Shown in pieces: positions 28,100-34,325 of a stretch of DNA of 45,733 bases. Where the stretch lies: assembly GCA_016842085.1 (NCBI GenBank), contig JAEVEX010000031.1, positions 1 through 45,733 of the forward strand. Reading direction: 5' to 3'. Position 1 is the first letter of the stretch. Each line of letters opens with the position of its first letter. Origin of the DNA: Candidatus Thermoflexus tengchongensis (GTDB lineage Bacteria; Chloroflexota; Anaerolineae; Thermoflexales; Thermoflexaceae). The notes under the pieces are model-generated. The model was not told the DNA's origin, searched no databases, and saw nothing but the letters and a program-made list of their open reading frames with translations. Both the position numbers and the translations under genes were made by a program.

Positions 28100-28591
28100 T
28101 CACCGGTTGGGTTCCTCCAGGAACGTCCGGAGCTCCTGAGCCTGCTCCGGGTTCAGCGCCTGGATCAGACGCAGGAGGGCCTCAAAGCCCTCCGGAGTGA
28201 TCCGGAAAACCGTGCCGTGGTGAACACGGAGGAACTCGAAGTGGTCGCGAGCCCGGGGGATCTGGCGCACCAGGAAAAGGGGAACGGGCTCATGGAGCCA
28301 TACGCTGGGGGACGGGGCCAGGTCGAAGGTATCATAAGGCCCTCCTTCGACCTCCGGGTAGCCATCCGAGGCCAGTCGGGCCAGGCCGATAATCCCCTCG
28401 CCGGCCTGGTAGGCCACGACAATATCCCCCTTTCGCATCTCCCGGATCCGGGCCCATGAGACCGGGGAGCGAATCCATTCTCGACCTCCCCAGTTCCGAC
28501 CCTCCTCCGCCGGGTTCTGGAAGAAATCCCGCCAGTGCCAGCGCCCTGCCGAGGCGCTGGCAACGATCCACCAGGCGCGGTATGGGCTCAT
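28100..28591 (-). CDS. EVE-domain protein
   Basis: 163 residues. The N-terminal part has the EVE pattern YRAWWIVASASAGRWHWRDF, then MRKGDIVVAYQAGEGIIGLA and a PVPLFLV segment. EVE folds are related to YTH and PUA domains and are proposed to bind modified bases. The gene starts 49 bp after the Mpg gene. ATG 28591 is preceded by GGAGGGTGA; the longer frame (to 28795) would overlap Mpg. Confidence 0.87.
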   Translation of the reverse strand: MSPYRAWWIVASASAGRWHWRDFFQNPAEEGRNWGGREWIRSPVSWARIREMRKGDIVVAYQAGEGIIGLARLASDGYPEVEGGPYDTFDLAPSPSVWLHEPVPLFLVRQIPRARDHFEFLRVHHGTVFRITPEGFEALLRLIQALNPEQAQELRTFLEEPNR

Positions 28592-28640
28592 CCGGAGCTC
28601 ACCCTCCTGTGCCGCGAAGCGCCATAAGCGCGGTGGATTA

Positions 28641-29231
28641 CTAATCCGACACACACGGATGGTCGCGAATATAAAACCGCCATGGTCGGGTGCGGGCGAG
28701 GAGATCCCCTCGCACCCGGACGCGGGGGCCGGTGGCCACCTGATCATCGGGGACCGGCTCACCGATCTCGATCCAGAGCCGGGCATCTGGCGCACACAGG
28801 TCGTGGCCGTTCAACCTCCGGTCGATGTCCAGCCCCGCGCAGACCCGACCGGGGCCCCGCAACCAGTCCCGCTCCGGGATCCCGGGACGCCGGCGGGCGA
28901 TCCATGAGAGTCCCTCCTCGGGCTCCAGGGCTCGGATCAGGATGGCCGCCGGGAACCCTTCCGGTTCCGTGACGATGTTCAGGCAATAGTGCTGGCCGTA
29001 GATCATATAGACATAGGCGTGTCCGGGCGGGCCATACATCACCGCATTGCGGGCGGTGCGACCGACGGAGGCATGGGAGGCCTGGTCATCCTCTCCAATG
29101 TAAGCCTCCACCTCCACAATGCGCCCTGAGATCCGACGCCCACGGATCAGGCGCACAAGGCGTCGCCCCAGGAGATCCCGGGCGACCTCTAAGGTGGGCC
29201 GCTCGAAGAACGCACGGGGTAGCCGTTGCAT
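28641..29231 (-). CDS. mpg: 3-methyladenine DNA glycosylase (AAG/Mpg type)
   Basis: 196 residues. The conserved segments are RAFFERPTLEVARDLLGRRL, GRIVEVEAYIGEDDQASHA, MYGPPGHAYVYMIYGQHYCLN and PGRVCAGLDIDR. The Glu in EVEAY is the expected catalytic base. It excises alkylated purines to start base excision repair. The start is uncertain: ATG 29231 has a close GGAG and matches the family N-terminus, while ATG 29270 and TTG 29282 are also in frame. Confidence 0.93.
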   Translation of the reverse strand: MQRLPRAFFERPTLEVARDLLGRRLVRLIRGRRISGRIVEVEAYIGEDDQASHASVGRTARNAVMYGPPGHAYVYMIYGQHYCLNIVTEPEGFPAAILIRALEPEEGLSWIARRRPGIPERDWLRGPGRVCAGLDIDRRLNGHDLCAPDARLWIEIGEPVPDDQVATGPRVRVRGDLLARTRPWRFYIRDHPCVSD

Positions 29232-29392
29232 CGTCTCCGGAGCCGGCGGTTTGGAAAGGATACCTCGCATGGCCAGGTTCAAGGAAGAACAGTGTCCTTT
29301 TGAAGAATATTTTCCCCCGCGCGGTGGCCTGGGAGGCCGTGGGGAAGGGCTACCGCGCCCTCCCGATCGAAGCTCAGCTGCGCAAGTCCCGT

Positions 29393-30223
29393 TCAGGATC
29401 CAAAGCCCAGTTCACTCAAACGGGTCATGGGATCCCGAGCGCTCAGGAGGGCTTCCTCTAAAATCACCGCGTGAAAACCCAGCGTCCGGATTTCTTCGAT
29501 CTCTTGGCGATTGGAAACCCCTCCAGCGACGATCTGAATGGCCTCCCTGGGGAGCAGCGGGCGCAGCCGGGCGGGCAGCGTGGGATCCACCTCAAAGGTC
29601 CGCCAGTCCCGCCGCTGGACGATGAGGGTGTCCAGGCCGGCTGCCCGGGCGGCTTCCAGTTCGGCCTCGGTTCGAACCTCCGCCAGGACCTCCAGGTTGC
29701 ATTCCGCGGCGGCTTCCAGAAGGGCTCGAAGGCTGGAGGGGCTCAGCATGCCCATGCTGATCCAGATGGCGTCGGCCCCGAAGGCCCGGGCCTCCAGCAC
29801 CTGGAAGGGATCGAGGAAGAAATCGTGCCGGATCACCGGGATACTCAGCCGTCGACGGAGCAGGGCCTGTTTCACCGCTGCCAGATGTTCCAGGCGGCCC
29901 TGATAGTAACGGGCATCCGTCATGATCACCAGGGCGGCGACCCCACGGGTCGCCAGGGAGAGGGCGAGGCGGACCGGGTCATAAGAGGGACGCAGCAAAC
30001 CGTGGAAGGGAGCGGCTCGCATCAGGGCGACGATGGGGCGGAGCCGGCCCTGGGGATCGGGAAGGACAGTTCGGAGGGAAACCGGGGCGGGCCACAGGCG
30101 GGTTTGCAGGCGCAACGCCCCTTCATCCAGCACACGACGTCGTCGCGCCAGCTCCTCCCGCTTATCTTCCAGAATCAATTCCAGGAAGCGGCCGCGCCGT
30201 CGGGCCCGTTCCCAGACGCTCAT
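29393..30223 (-). CDS. Indole-3-glycerol-phosphate synthase-like protein lacking active-site residues
   Basis: 276 residues with a TrpC-type TIM barrel (ILEDKREELARRRR at the start, then LVIMTDARYYQGRLEHL and RRDWRTFEVD). Compared with the S. solfataricus enzyme, residues equivalent to E51, K53, K110, N180, E210 and S211 are L67, R69, H133, Q203, A233 and G234; only the E159 equivalent (E182) remains. It is therefore unlikely to make indole-glycerol phosphate, and no trp genes are near. The reading frame is intact, so another function is likely. Its ATG overlaps the stop of the upstream MBL gene by 4 bp. Confidence 0.8.
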   Translation of the reverse strand: MSVWERARRRGRFLELILEDKREELARRRRVLDEGALRLQTRLWPAPVSLRTVLPDPQGRLRPIVALMRAAPFHGLLRPSYDPVRLALSLATRGVAALVIMTDARYYQGRLEHLAAVKQALLRRRLSIPVIRHDFFLDPFQVLEARAFGADAIWISMGMLSPSSLRALLEAAAECNLEVLAEVRTEAELEAARAAGLDTLIVQRRDWRTFEVDPTLPARLRPLLPREAIQIVAGGVSNRQEIEEIRTLGFHAVILEEALLSARDPMTRLSELGFGS

Positions 30224-31110
30224 GAGGTCCTGGAGGAGCGCGAGGAGGTTTTGGTTGCCCGCGCCCTGGAGACAGGCTGGATCTCTGCGCTGAGGCGCTG
30301 ATATAGCGCGATGAGGTTGCGGTGGTGCAGCTGAGGGGCCAGACCGTTCAGGGCGATGCGGGGGATCCCGCAGCTTTCCACATCCAGTTCCCGCAGCGCC
30401 TCCCGGGGCTTCCCCTGCTGGAGATAGCGCCGAACCTCACGCACAATCGTGTTCAGGTAATTGATGTTGGCCTGGATCGCGTCCGGCACCTCCCCCCGAA
30501 GGATCGGCTCGCCGTGGCCGGGGACCATCGTCTCGATCTGAAGTTCCCGAAAGCGCTGAAGGGTGGCGATGGTCTGCTCGACATCGCCATCCACGATGTA
30601 AGGGATGGGCATCATAACATCCCCGGTGAAGAGGATCCGATCCTCGCGAACATAGACGGCCAGCCCATCCGGGGAGTGGCCGGGGGCGTGAAACAGCTGC
30701 AGCGTTTTGTTCCCCAGGCGCAGCAGGAGATCGCCTTCTTCCACAACGACCTCCGGAAGGCGAAGGCTCAGCGGAGCAAAGGCGGGGTCCTGGGCCTTGG
30801 CCGCCTGGAGGGCCTGCTCCCCATGTTCCTCCAGGCGTTTCCGGCAAAGGGTGTGGGCGATGGCGATCGCATTCGGAAAGAAGCACGCGCCAAAGGTGTG
30901 ATCCGTATGATAATGAGTGAGAACCAGATAAATTGGGCGCCCCTCCGCCTCCTTCTCCACCAGCGCGACGATCTCCCGGGTCTCCTCGGGAAATGGAAGG
31001 GTATCGATCACCACGACCCCATCGGAGGCGAGGACCACCCCCGCATTCACCTGGGCATACAGGTCGCTGGTGAGGACGTAGATATCGTCCGTAATCCGAT
31101 CCCGCTGCAT
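30220..31110 (-). CDS. Metallo-beta-lactamase-fold hydrolase
   Basis: 296 residues with the MBL metal motif THYHTDHTFG, the later HAPGHSPDGLAVY, the bridging Asp in LFTGDVM and the last His in MVPGHGEP. The family includes glyoxalase II-like thioesterases, lactonases and other hydrolases; the substrate is unknown. It starts the minus-strand pair with the IGPS-like gene, and coupling by overlap suggests that the two products act in the same process. The C-terminal 35 residues are variable. Confidence 0.9.
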   Translation of the reverse strand: MQRDRITDDIYVLTSDLYAQVNAGVVLASDGVVVIDTLPFPEETREIVALVEKEAEGRPIYLVLTHYHTDHTFGACFFPNAIAIAHTLCRKRLEEHGEQALQAAKAQDPAFAPLSLRLPEVVVEEGDLLLRLGNKTLQLFHAPGHSPDGLAVYVREDRILFTGDVMMPIPYIVDGDVEQTIATLQRFRELQIETMVPGHGEPILRGEVPDAIQANINYLNTIVREVRRYLQQGKPREALRELDVESCGIPRIALNGLAPQLHHRNLIALYQRLSAEIQPVSRARATKTSSRSSRTS

Positions 31111-31243
31111 GGGCGAGCGTTCTCTCCTCGGAAATGTCCCACCCGGGCGGATCTTCTATATCATGAAGCAGAGGCTCACGGCAAGCATTTTAAGGGGACT
31201 TCCTGTGATCGTCAACAACCGTATTCCATGCGGGGAGGGATCT

Positions 31244-32059
31244 ATGGAAGGGCGGACGGTGCTGATCACAGGGGCGAGCAGCGGGATTGGGGCGGCCACG
31301 GCTCGATGGCTGGCCTGCCAGGGCATGCGCGTGGTCCTGACTGCCCGGCGTCAGGATCGTCTGGAGGCCCTGGCCCAGGAGATCCGCGCTCAGGGCGGCG
31401 CCGCCCTGGTGATCCCGGCGGACCTGGCCAGCTTCTCCGACCGTCAGGCCCTGGTGCGTCAGGTGGAGGACGCGTGGGGCCCGGTGGAGGTGCTCATCAA
31501 TAATGCGGGCTTCGGCTACTACGGGACCGTGGCGGAGACCCCCTGGGAAGTGGTCGAGCGGATGTTCCAGGTGAACATCCTGGCCATGATCCATCTGGTG
31601 CAGCTGGTGTTGCCGGGCATGCGGCAGCTGGGGCGCGGTCATATCATCAACGTTGCCTCCGTCGCCGGATATATCTCCACCCCGCCCCTCACCGTCTATT
31701 CCGCCACCAAGTTCGCGGTGGTGGGATTCAGCGAGGGATTACGACGGGAGCTGGAGCCGTACGGCATTCACGTCACGGTGATCAGCCCCGGGCCGGTTCG
31801 CACGGAGTTCGGACGAGCCGCCAGCGGGCTGGCGGTGGATCCTGGCGAGGTGCCCGGGGGGCTGAACCCCGAGGCGGTCGCCCGGGCGATCGCCCGGGCA
31901 TTGCGCCGGCCGGTGCCCGAGATTGTGATCCCCGCTCGTTATGTCCCGGCCATCTGGATCAACCGGGCGCTGCCCCGCCTGGTCGATTGGGGGGCCGCCC
32001 GGCAGGGCCGTGCATGGCTGCGCCATCTGGAGAAAGCCCGAAGCGGGGGAAGCGGATGA
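31244..32059 (+). CDS. Short-chain dehydrogenase/reductase
   Basis: 271 residues. The NAD(P) motif is TGASSGIGAAT, NNAG follows in LINNAGFGYYG, and the catalytic Ser and YxxxK are in NVASVAGY and YSATK. TARRQDRL suggests NADP preference. The substrate is unknown. ATG 31244 is preceded by GGGGAGGGA; the frame is open further upstream but its translation has no SDR similarity. Confidence 0.92.
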   Translation: MEGRTVLITGASSGIGAATARWLACQGMRVVLTARRQDRLEALAQEIRAQGGAALVIPADLASFSDRQALVRQVEDAWGPVEVLINNAGFGYYGTVAETPWEVVERMFQVNILAMIHLVQLVLPGMRQLGRGHIINVASVAGYISTPPLTVYSATKFAVVGFSEGLRRELEPYGIHVTVISPGPVRTEFGRAASGLAVDPGEVPGGLNPEAVARAIARALRRPVPEIVIPARYVPAIWINRALPRLVDWGAARQGRAWLRHLEKARSGGSG

Positions 32060-32939: not shown

Positions 32940-34325
32940 ATGGCGCTTACAGTCGATGACCTGCGGGATCTAACGGAGCTCTTACGGGCGCATCCTGAGT
33001 GGCGGGAGGTCCTGTGGGCTTTGCTGGCCTCGGAGGAAGTCCTCCGTATGCCAGCGGAGCTTACGGCCTTCCGCGCCGAGGCCGAAAGTCGCTTTGCGGA
33101 ACTGGCCGAAGCAATCCGGCGCCTAAGCGAGACTTTCACCACCCATCGTCAGGAGTTCCTGGCATTCCAGGCCCAGACGGAGGCTCGCTTTGTTGCTCTG
33201 GCGGATGCGGTTCGCAATCTGAGTGAGACTTTTGTTGCCCATCGTCAGGAGTTCCTGGCATTCCAGGCCCAGACGGAGGCTCGCTTTGCTGCTCTGGCGG
33301 ATGCGGTTCGCAATCTGAGTGAGACTTTTGTTGCCCATCGTCAGGAGTTCCTGGCATTCCAGGCCCAGACGGAGGCTCGCTTTGCTGCTCTGGCGGATGC
33401 GGTTCGCAATCTGAGTGAGACTTTTGTTGCCCATCGTCAGGAGTTCCTGGCATTCCAGGCCCAGACGGAGGCTCGCTTTGCTGCTCTGGCGGATGCGGTT
33501 CGCAATCTGAGTGAGACTTTTGTTGCCCATCGTCAGGAGTTCCTGGCATTCCAGGCCCAGACGGAGGCTCGCTTTGCGGAGCTCGGCGCAGCCCTTCACA
33601 CTCTGGCTGGCATCGTTCGTGAACTGGCTGAGACCCAGCGTCAGCTGATGGAAGTCCATGCTCGCACTGAAGAGCGCTTGGCCACCCTGCGTCAGGAGTT
33701 GCTGGAACACCGCCAGGGGCTTCTGGGGCTTCGTCAGGATTTCCAGGAGCATCGTGAGGAGTTCTTGCAGCTGCGCCAGGATCTCCAGGAGCACCGCCGG
33801 GAATTCCTGGAGCTCCGCCCTGAGTTTCAGGAACACCGCAGGGAGTTCCAGGAACACCGCCAGGGGGTGGCCAACGATATGTCTGTCCTGAAGAAGATGT
33901 ATCTGGAGTGGCAATATCGGGAGCGGGCGGCGGCTTACTTCGGCGGTCGGAATTTCCGCCGGGTGCAGGCGCTGACCTTTGAGGAGCTGATGGAGGCGCT
34001 GGGGAACGCGCTGGATGCCGGGCGGATCACGCCGGAGGAATACGAGGAGGCGCGGCGGGTGGATGGGGTGATCCAGGGGCGACGACGCGAGGGGTCGCTA
34101 CACCTGGCCCTGGAGGTCTCGTGGGTGGTGGACCGGGGAGATGTGGAGCGGGCAGTTCGGCGGGCGGAAATTCTGGGGAAGGTGCTGGGGGAGACATGGC
34201 CGGCGGTGGCAGGGCGGGAGCTGACGGAGGGGGCGCGGGAGGCTGTGGAAGGGCTGCGTCGGGAGGGGCGGCCTCTCGTAGTGATTCAGGACGGTGGGAT
34301 CGACTGGCCACAGGAGTCAGCTTGA
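32940..34325 (+). CDS. Coiled-coil repeat protein with DUF3782/PD-(D/E)XK-like C-terminus
   Basis: 461 residues. A short helical start (LTVDDLRDLTELLRAHPEW) precedes a long coiled coil made of 32-residue units (about 70-213), then a second region of HRQ/QEF-type repeats to about 315. The C-terminal domain (RERAAAYFGGRNFRRVQAL, then DGVIQGRRREGSLHLALEVS, ERAVRRAEIL) resembles DUF3782-like PD-(D/E)XK nucleases of cyanobacteria, archaea and Chloroflexota. D and E-x-S at the core would be metal ligands. Function is unknown. ATG 32940 has GGGAGG close upstream. Confidence 0.75.
   Translation: MALTVDDLRDLTELLRAHPEWREVLWALLASEEVLRMPAELTAFRAEAESRFAELAEAIRRLSETFTTHRQEFLAFQAQTEARFVALADAVRNLSETFVAHRQEFLAFQAQTEARFAALADAVRNLSETFVAHRQEFLAFQAQTEARFAALADAVRNLSETFVAHRQEFLAFQAQTEARFAALADAVRNLSETFVAHRQEFLAFQAQTEARFAELGAALHTLAGIVRELAETQRQLMEVHARTEERLATLRQELLEHRQGLLGLRQDFQEHREEFLQLRQDLQEHRREFLELRPEFQEHRREFQEHRQGVANDMSVLKKMYLEWQYRERAAAYFGGRNFRRVQALTFEELMEALGNALDAGRITPEEYEEARRVDGVIQGRRREGSLHLALEVSWVVDRGDVERAVRRAEILGKVLGETWPAVAGRELTEGAREAVEGLRREGRPLVVIQDGGIDWPQESA
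33147..33577 (+). repeat. 96-bp tandem repeat, about 4.5 copies, coding
   Basis: Units start at 33147, 33243, 33339 and 33435, with a half unit at 33531-33577. They are identical apart from one base in the first unit (GTT for GCT near 33193). The period is 32 codons, so frame is kept whatever the copy number. The near-identity at DNA level points to recent expansion or gene conversion. Confidence 0.95.

Follow-up and report, generated by a model that had tools for sequence, protein, structure and literature searches.

Genes and features at the locus

The window, a 45,733-nucleotide stretch of DNA from Candidatus Thermoflexus tengchongensis (contig JAEVEX010000031.1), carries a gene whose product resembles indole-glycerol-phosphate synthase (IGPS, TrpC) next to a gene for a metallo-beta-lactamase (MBL)-fold hydrolase. 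These genes and their neighbors are arranged as follows.

28641 to 29282, minus strand: methylpurine-DNA glycosylase (MPG), syntenic in seven of eight genomes
29393 to 30223, minus strand: IGPS-like (beta-alpha)8 barrel protein of 276 amino acids with a rebuilt active site (A66, M68, H133, E182, Q203, R205, A233, G234, E256)
30220 to 30223, minus strand: 4-bp ATGA stop/start overlap between the MBL and IGPS-like genes
30220 to 31110, minus strand: MBL-fold hydrolase of 296 amino acids with an intact metal motif (H66xH68xD70H71, H145, D164, H199)
31111 to 31240: divergent intergenic region from the MBL gene to the likely SDR start
31241 to 32059, plus strand: divergent short-chain dehydrogenase (SDR), a syntenic neighbor

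The IGPS-like open reading frame starts with ATG and is intact, and our gene calls agreed with the sequence-only reading on both this frame and its overlap with the MBL gene. The overlap, which is 4 bp long (ATGA or GTGA) in all but one of the eight Thermoflexus genomes with the pair and 1 bp in the exception, suggests that the two genes are translationally coupled. The protein matches the Pfam IGPS family over its full length (PF00218; 153.9 bits against a cutoff of 27, E = 5.7e-45). However, it falls under every NCBIfam equivalog cutoff for TrpC (best score, 166 versus 260 bits). We found no T-box or trp leader among Rfam matches within the window. Scanning for promoters and terminators gave results at chance level: one promoter-like match lies in the MBL-SDR intergenic region (31215 to 31187, minus strand), against 0.8 expected by chance. 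Because similarity to the SDR begins at residue 45 to 47 in several species, the real start of that gene is probably near 31241.

The MBL protein matched PF00753 (Lactamase_B) with 98.5 bits, and its metal ligands (H66, H68, D70, H71, H145, D164, and H199) were invariant. It has the MBL fold and the full metal-ligand motif in common with SoxH-related hydrolases (TIGR04559, TIGR04558) and B2 beta-lactamase-like proteins. Nevertheless, it scored far under the NCBIfam equivalog cutoff for the SoxH-related quinoprotein relay hydrolase (108.5 versus 280 bits).

The MBL gene adjoins the IGPS-like gene in all eight Thermoflexus genomes that carry the latter. In one of these genomes (G006), the MBL and IGPS-like genes are together, but MPG is on a different contig, and its place downstream is taken by an ABC-transporter ATPase-like frame. 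Since the whole SDR-MBL-IGPS-MPG block is mostly syntenic, this adjacency is by itself weak evidence for joint function. Outside the genus, the picture is different. Relatives of the MBL protein occur in 385 of 396 genomes of the class, and none of the 22 best non-Thermoflexus loci has an IGPS-like gene within 1.5 kb of the MBL gene. The MBL protein thus does not depend on the IGPS-like protein; its role is older, and the barrel gene was added next to it in Thermoflexus. The coupling proposed from sequence inspection therefore held as a constant adjacency in the genus but not as a dependence of the MBL family on a barrel partner.

Several further observations concern the gene neighborhood. Judged by eye from translations only, the MBL gene of many other Anaerolineae is directly followed by an RNase HI-like gene (L082, L083, L089, L090, L095, L097, and L098) or by an AlaX-like gene (L084 to L088). 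Within the window, there is a sub-threshold match to an EVE domain beside MPG (28100 to 28795), where both open frames overlap. A 461-amino-acid protein with several near-identical repeats of about 32 residues (FVAHRQEFLAFQAQTEARFAALADAVRNLSET) and without an informative family match is encoded at 32940 to 34325.

Active site and predicted structure of the IGPS-like protein

The catalytic residues of Sulfolobus IGPS are E51, K53, K110, E159, N180, and S211, and its ligand contacts include L131, L231, I232, G212, and G233 (PMC3391178). In characterized IGPS enzymes, K53, K110, E159, and N180 are essential (PMC7681013). Against this list of six, the IGPS-like protein retains E159 alone, as E182, which is also the single survivor when seven catalytic residues are counted. 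In an alignment to IGPS, K110 is replaced by H133, N180 by Q203, E210 by A233, and S211 by G234, while an ungapped alignment places A66 at E51 and M68 at K53. The sequence-only reading had claimed that six of seven catalytic residues are replaced. That count and four of its assignments (H133, Q203, A233, and G234) stand, but the L67 and R69 it named are the residues adjoining the true equivalents.

The active site differs from that of IGPS in other ways that had gone unremarked. The phosphate-site residue G233 is replaced by E256, L131 by W154, S56 by A71, and S58 by F73. Not everything has been lost, however. R182 is retained as R205, also unremarked until now, as are D111 and F112 (D134 and F135). 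Of the phosphate-site glycines, the G212 equivalent is present in seven of eight orthologs, while the G233 position is glutamate in all eight. The named substitutions are identical across the eight Thermoflexus orthologs, and since they are invariant in eight species at pairwise identities of 72 to 100%, they reflect neither sequencing errors nor chance. At the replaced positions, the usual residues are near-universal in 62 other IGPS sequences from the phylum. In short, the protein is like TrpC (EC 4.1.1.48) in its barrel fold over the whole length, with 31 to 42% identity, but it differs in a fixed set of replacements and in lying away from trp genes.

These replacements bear on whether the protein could still act as an IGPS. 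In Mycobacterium tuberculosis IGPS, each of the mutations E57A, K59A, K119A, E168A, and E219A left no detectable activity, and K119R lowered activity more than 2,700-fold (PMC10591298). The corresponding positions are E51, K53, K110, E159, and E210, four of which are altered together in the IGPS-like protein. A glycine of the G233 type, which contacts the ligand in IGPS, presumably serves the phosphate in this barrel family. Given the changes at four of five activity-abolishing positions and the glutamate at a ligand-contacting glycine, the residues present indicate that IGPS activity has very probably been lost. It is correspondingly improbable, by a wide margin, that the protein still catalyzes the IGPS reaction, be it only as a weak back-up, with H133 in place of K110. 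The fold and the retained equivalents of E159 and R182 are what such an enzyme would have kept, but the joint loss of residues that are individually indispensable, the glutamate in the phosphate site, and a normal TrpC in the same genome all speak against it.

AlphaFold2, given the window's own IGPS-like sequence aligned with five orthologs, predicted a barrel (mean pLDDT, 87.1; pTM, 0.84) with a single poor stretch, the loop at residues 70 to 72 that follows strand 1. The best Foldseek matches in the PDB were IGPS enzymes and Kemp eliminases designed on the IGPS scaffold, and retro-aldolase designs on IGPS were also among the top matches. The model of the MBL protein was of low confidence (pLDDT, 48) and was left out of the analysis.

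Distribution, selection, and descent

Apart from the IGPS-like copy, a single protein of the genome matches PF00218 (275 bits): a TrpC in which no catalytic residue is missing. Its gene is flanked by trpD and trpF, and TrpA is encoded downstream on that contig. The true TrpC that had been called for as a check on the sequence-only reading is thus present, normal, and in a trpD-trpC-trpF operon. The IGPS-like copy is found in eight of nine Thermoflexus genomes (identity, 72 to 100%) with the same substitutions. Within the fetched loci, trpD or trpF was near none of these eight copies, compared to 39 of 39 ordinary TrpCs.

The ninth genome of the genus (G005) lacks the IGPS-like copy along with a close MBL, MPG, and a close SDR. 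We considered it as an empty-site test but dropped it, as TrpC, TrpF, and TrpA matches are absent too. The genome is probably incomplete or divergent.

No further ortholog was found among 396 genomes of the class and 400 genomes of the phylum. The next best matches were IGPS sequences (176 to 182 bits), and those that we inspected were ordinary or partly altered. A scan of 84,980 species, which needs near-exact peptides and can miss distant relatives, returned Thermoflexus relatives only, including one record named just Chloroflexota. The closest named relatives were Candidatus Thermoflexus japonica, Ca. T. sinensis, and other Thermoflexus. Homologs with normal catalytic residues, which the sequence-only reading took as grounds for refutation, are absent among the Thermoflexus orthologs but exist in the wider lineage. 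As an observation on the same searches, a single in-frame TGA or TAA interrupts some of the IGPS matches in the phylum (G512, G456, G448, and related genomes).

The IGPS-like genes show the marks of purifying selection. Pairwise dN/dS was 0.10 to 0.23, with the exception of one near-identical pair (dN/dS = 0.79), for which the ratio is meaningless at a dS of 0.009. The operon TrpCs of these genomes gave a similar 0.12 to 0.20. We then considered 23 pocket positions, defined from TrpC biochemistry as the equivalents of IGPS catalytic or ligand-contacting residues and their neighbors. Of these, 21 were invariant, versus 157 of 274 positions over the whole protein (hypergeometric P = 2.7e-4); the true TrpC pocket is likewise conserved (20/23). 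On the modeled barrel, invariant positions are concentrated on the catalytic face (24/32) relative to the opposite face (16/32), whereas the two faces of the true TrpC are without such contrast (24/32 and 27/32). Conservation is also strong at the basic N-terminal helix; 31 of the first 40 positions are invariant. In the tree, the stem of the IGPS-like group measures about 1.6 changes per site and the branches that follow are short, and the substitutions have been constant since before the split of the sampled Thermoflexus species. A burst of change was followed by constraint.

With the pocket conserved beyond the level of the remaining protein, these patterns point to a selected protein with a working, altered pocket rather than a decaying copy, and indicate that the pocket is under selection in its new form. 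Decay would be in keeping with the lost catalytic residues, and stand-alone relatives from the second TrpC lineage described below have lost some of theirs in other genera as well. Yet with the frame intact in eight species, low dN/dS, and an invariant pocket, a decaying or nonfunctional duplicate is contradicted by the selection data, and we regard it as the least credible of all the explanations.

Judging from its sequence relationships, the protein probably has its origin in a second lineage of TrpC in the Anaerolineae. It scored up to 176 bits against other Anaerolineae IGPS but 142 bits against its own genome's TrpC. The second lineage is a clade of 21 sequences (support, 95/98; e.g., L030, L023, and L029) that includes the best relatives outside the genus (L023, 176 bits). 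An N-terminal extension, R-x-R-x-x-G-x-[ILF]-L-x-x-I, is present in 8 of 8 IGPS-like copies and 20 of 21 members of the second lineage but in none of 39 other TrpCs, seven of them from Thermoflexus; the motif was defined post hoc, so this count is descriptive. Alternatively, the gene could have arisen by duplication of the operon TrpC within the genus, which would be compatible with the functional readings discussed below. Grouping with Thermoflexus TrpC received a support of 58 in a quick tree, and in a careful tree it was not rejected (p-AU = 0.38; lnL 1.74 lower). Grouping with the second lineage was likewise neither rejected nor established, and it costs less likelihood (p-AU = 0.25; lnL 0.44 lower). 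With the N-terminal extension common to the second lineage and absent from Thermoflexus TrpCs, we consider an operon origin unlikely, though well within reason.

Most members of the second lineage retain all catalytic residues, unlike the IGPS-like protein. Nine of the 21 lie beside trpD or trpF and have kept their catalytic residues. The other 12 are without such a neighbor, and four of these, in four genomes, are partly altered (L122 in G198, L027 in G188, L032 in G109, and L046 in G021). These four carry the same N-terminal motif as the IGPS-like protein and have likewise lost part of their catalytic residues away from trpD and trpF. However, they differ from it in having other substitutions, no MBL neighbor, and separate tree positions. 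We read this as extra TrpC copies having been set free repeatedly, and see Thermoflexus as the extreme, stabilized case.

The altered copies are also of interest individually. L122 (G198:C195:968-1771, minus strand) is a third IGPS copy, stripped independently, beside a sucC-like gene (E51 to Q, K53 to I, K110 to F, E159 to A, N180 to D, R182 to Q, and E210 to R); its Anaerolineae genome has two ordinary copies as well, one of them the operon TrpC. In contrast, L027, L046, and L032 are the sole IGPS copies matched in their respective genomes. In G021, which is 96% complete, neither TrpA nor TrpF was matched; an IGPS-like gene has thus been kept there in the absence of the remaining pathway.

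A possible new role for the barrel

With a true TrpC elsewhere in the genome, essential residues lost, strong selection, and a conserved pocket, the protein is best described as TrpC-derived with a non-IGPS role. It is real, selected, and restricted to the genus, and it has probably been neofunctionalized. The suggestion that it is a new enzyme or a TrpC-derived regulator is thus borne out as to its descent and changed role, while nothing in the data demonstrates a regulator. Our main reading of the sequence data is that a neofunctionalized IGPS barrel acts together with the MBL hydrolase, probably on a nonphosphorylated ligand, to which we assign a probability of about 0.5.

Such a protein could have arisen and could work as follows. 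With the operon TrpC making tryptophan, the second-lineage copy would have been free to change. The pocket would hold a ligand without phosphate, since E256 replaces the phosphate-contacting glycine and both K53 and S211 are gone. In Pseudomonas IGPS, the R182 counterpart touches both the carboxylate and the phosphate (PMC7681013); R205 would still anchor a carboxylate. H133 and the retained E182 would serve as an acid/base pair. The barrel and the hydrolase would be made together and share one metabolite; for example, the MBL protein might open an ester or lactone, whose product the barrel would convert or bind. In its most specific form, the proposal is a Thermoflexus-specific IGPS-barrel enzyme for a nonphosphorylated metabolite, with histidine for K110 and a glutamate-filled phosphate site, working in series with the coupled MBL protein and representing one of several independent repurposings of the second lineage. 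This version is tentative and somewhat less than an even bet.

In the main rival explanation, the barrel is catalytically inactive and serves the MBL protein by regulating it, by supporting it structurally, or by sensing a ligand. Such a pseudoenzyme would explain why most catalytic residues are gone and why the two genes look translationally coupled, the strongly conserved basic N-terminal helix could be an interface, and MBL genes that occur elsewhere without a barrel are as expected for an added regulator. A pure scaffold, however, should let its pocket drift; this pocket varies less than the remainder of the protein and has gained polar residues (H133, Q203, and E256) besides the retained E182 and R205. 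Even so, a conserved pocket is just as compatible with a protein that only binds its ligand as with an enzyme. On balance, we find a noncatalytic partner doubtful but a serious contender.

A neofunctionalized barrel would be of wider relevance for this family. The IGPS barrel is a favorite scaffold for designed enzymes, such as Kemp eliminases and retro-aldolases. In the literature that we searched, we found no natural IGPS relative with a different function and no description of a noncatalytic or repurposed IGPS, nor anything on point for Thermoflexus together with metallo-beta-lactamase. Domain-based annotation would label the IGPS-like protein TrpC. With a conserved case in Thermoflexus, an internal control in the form of the operon TrpC, and intermediates in sister genera, a natural route from one barrel enzyme to another would become directly testable.
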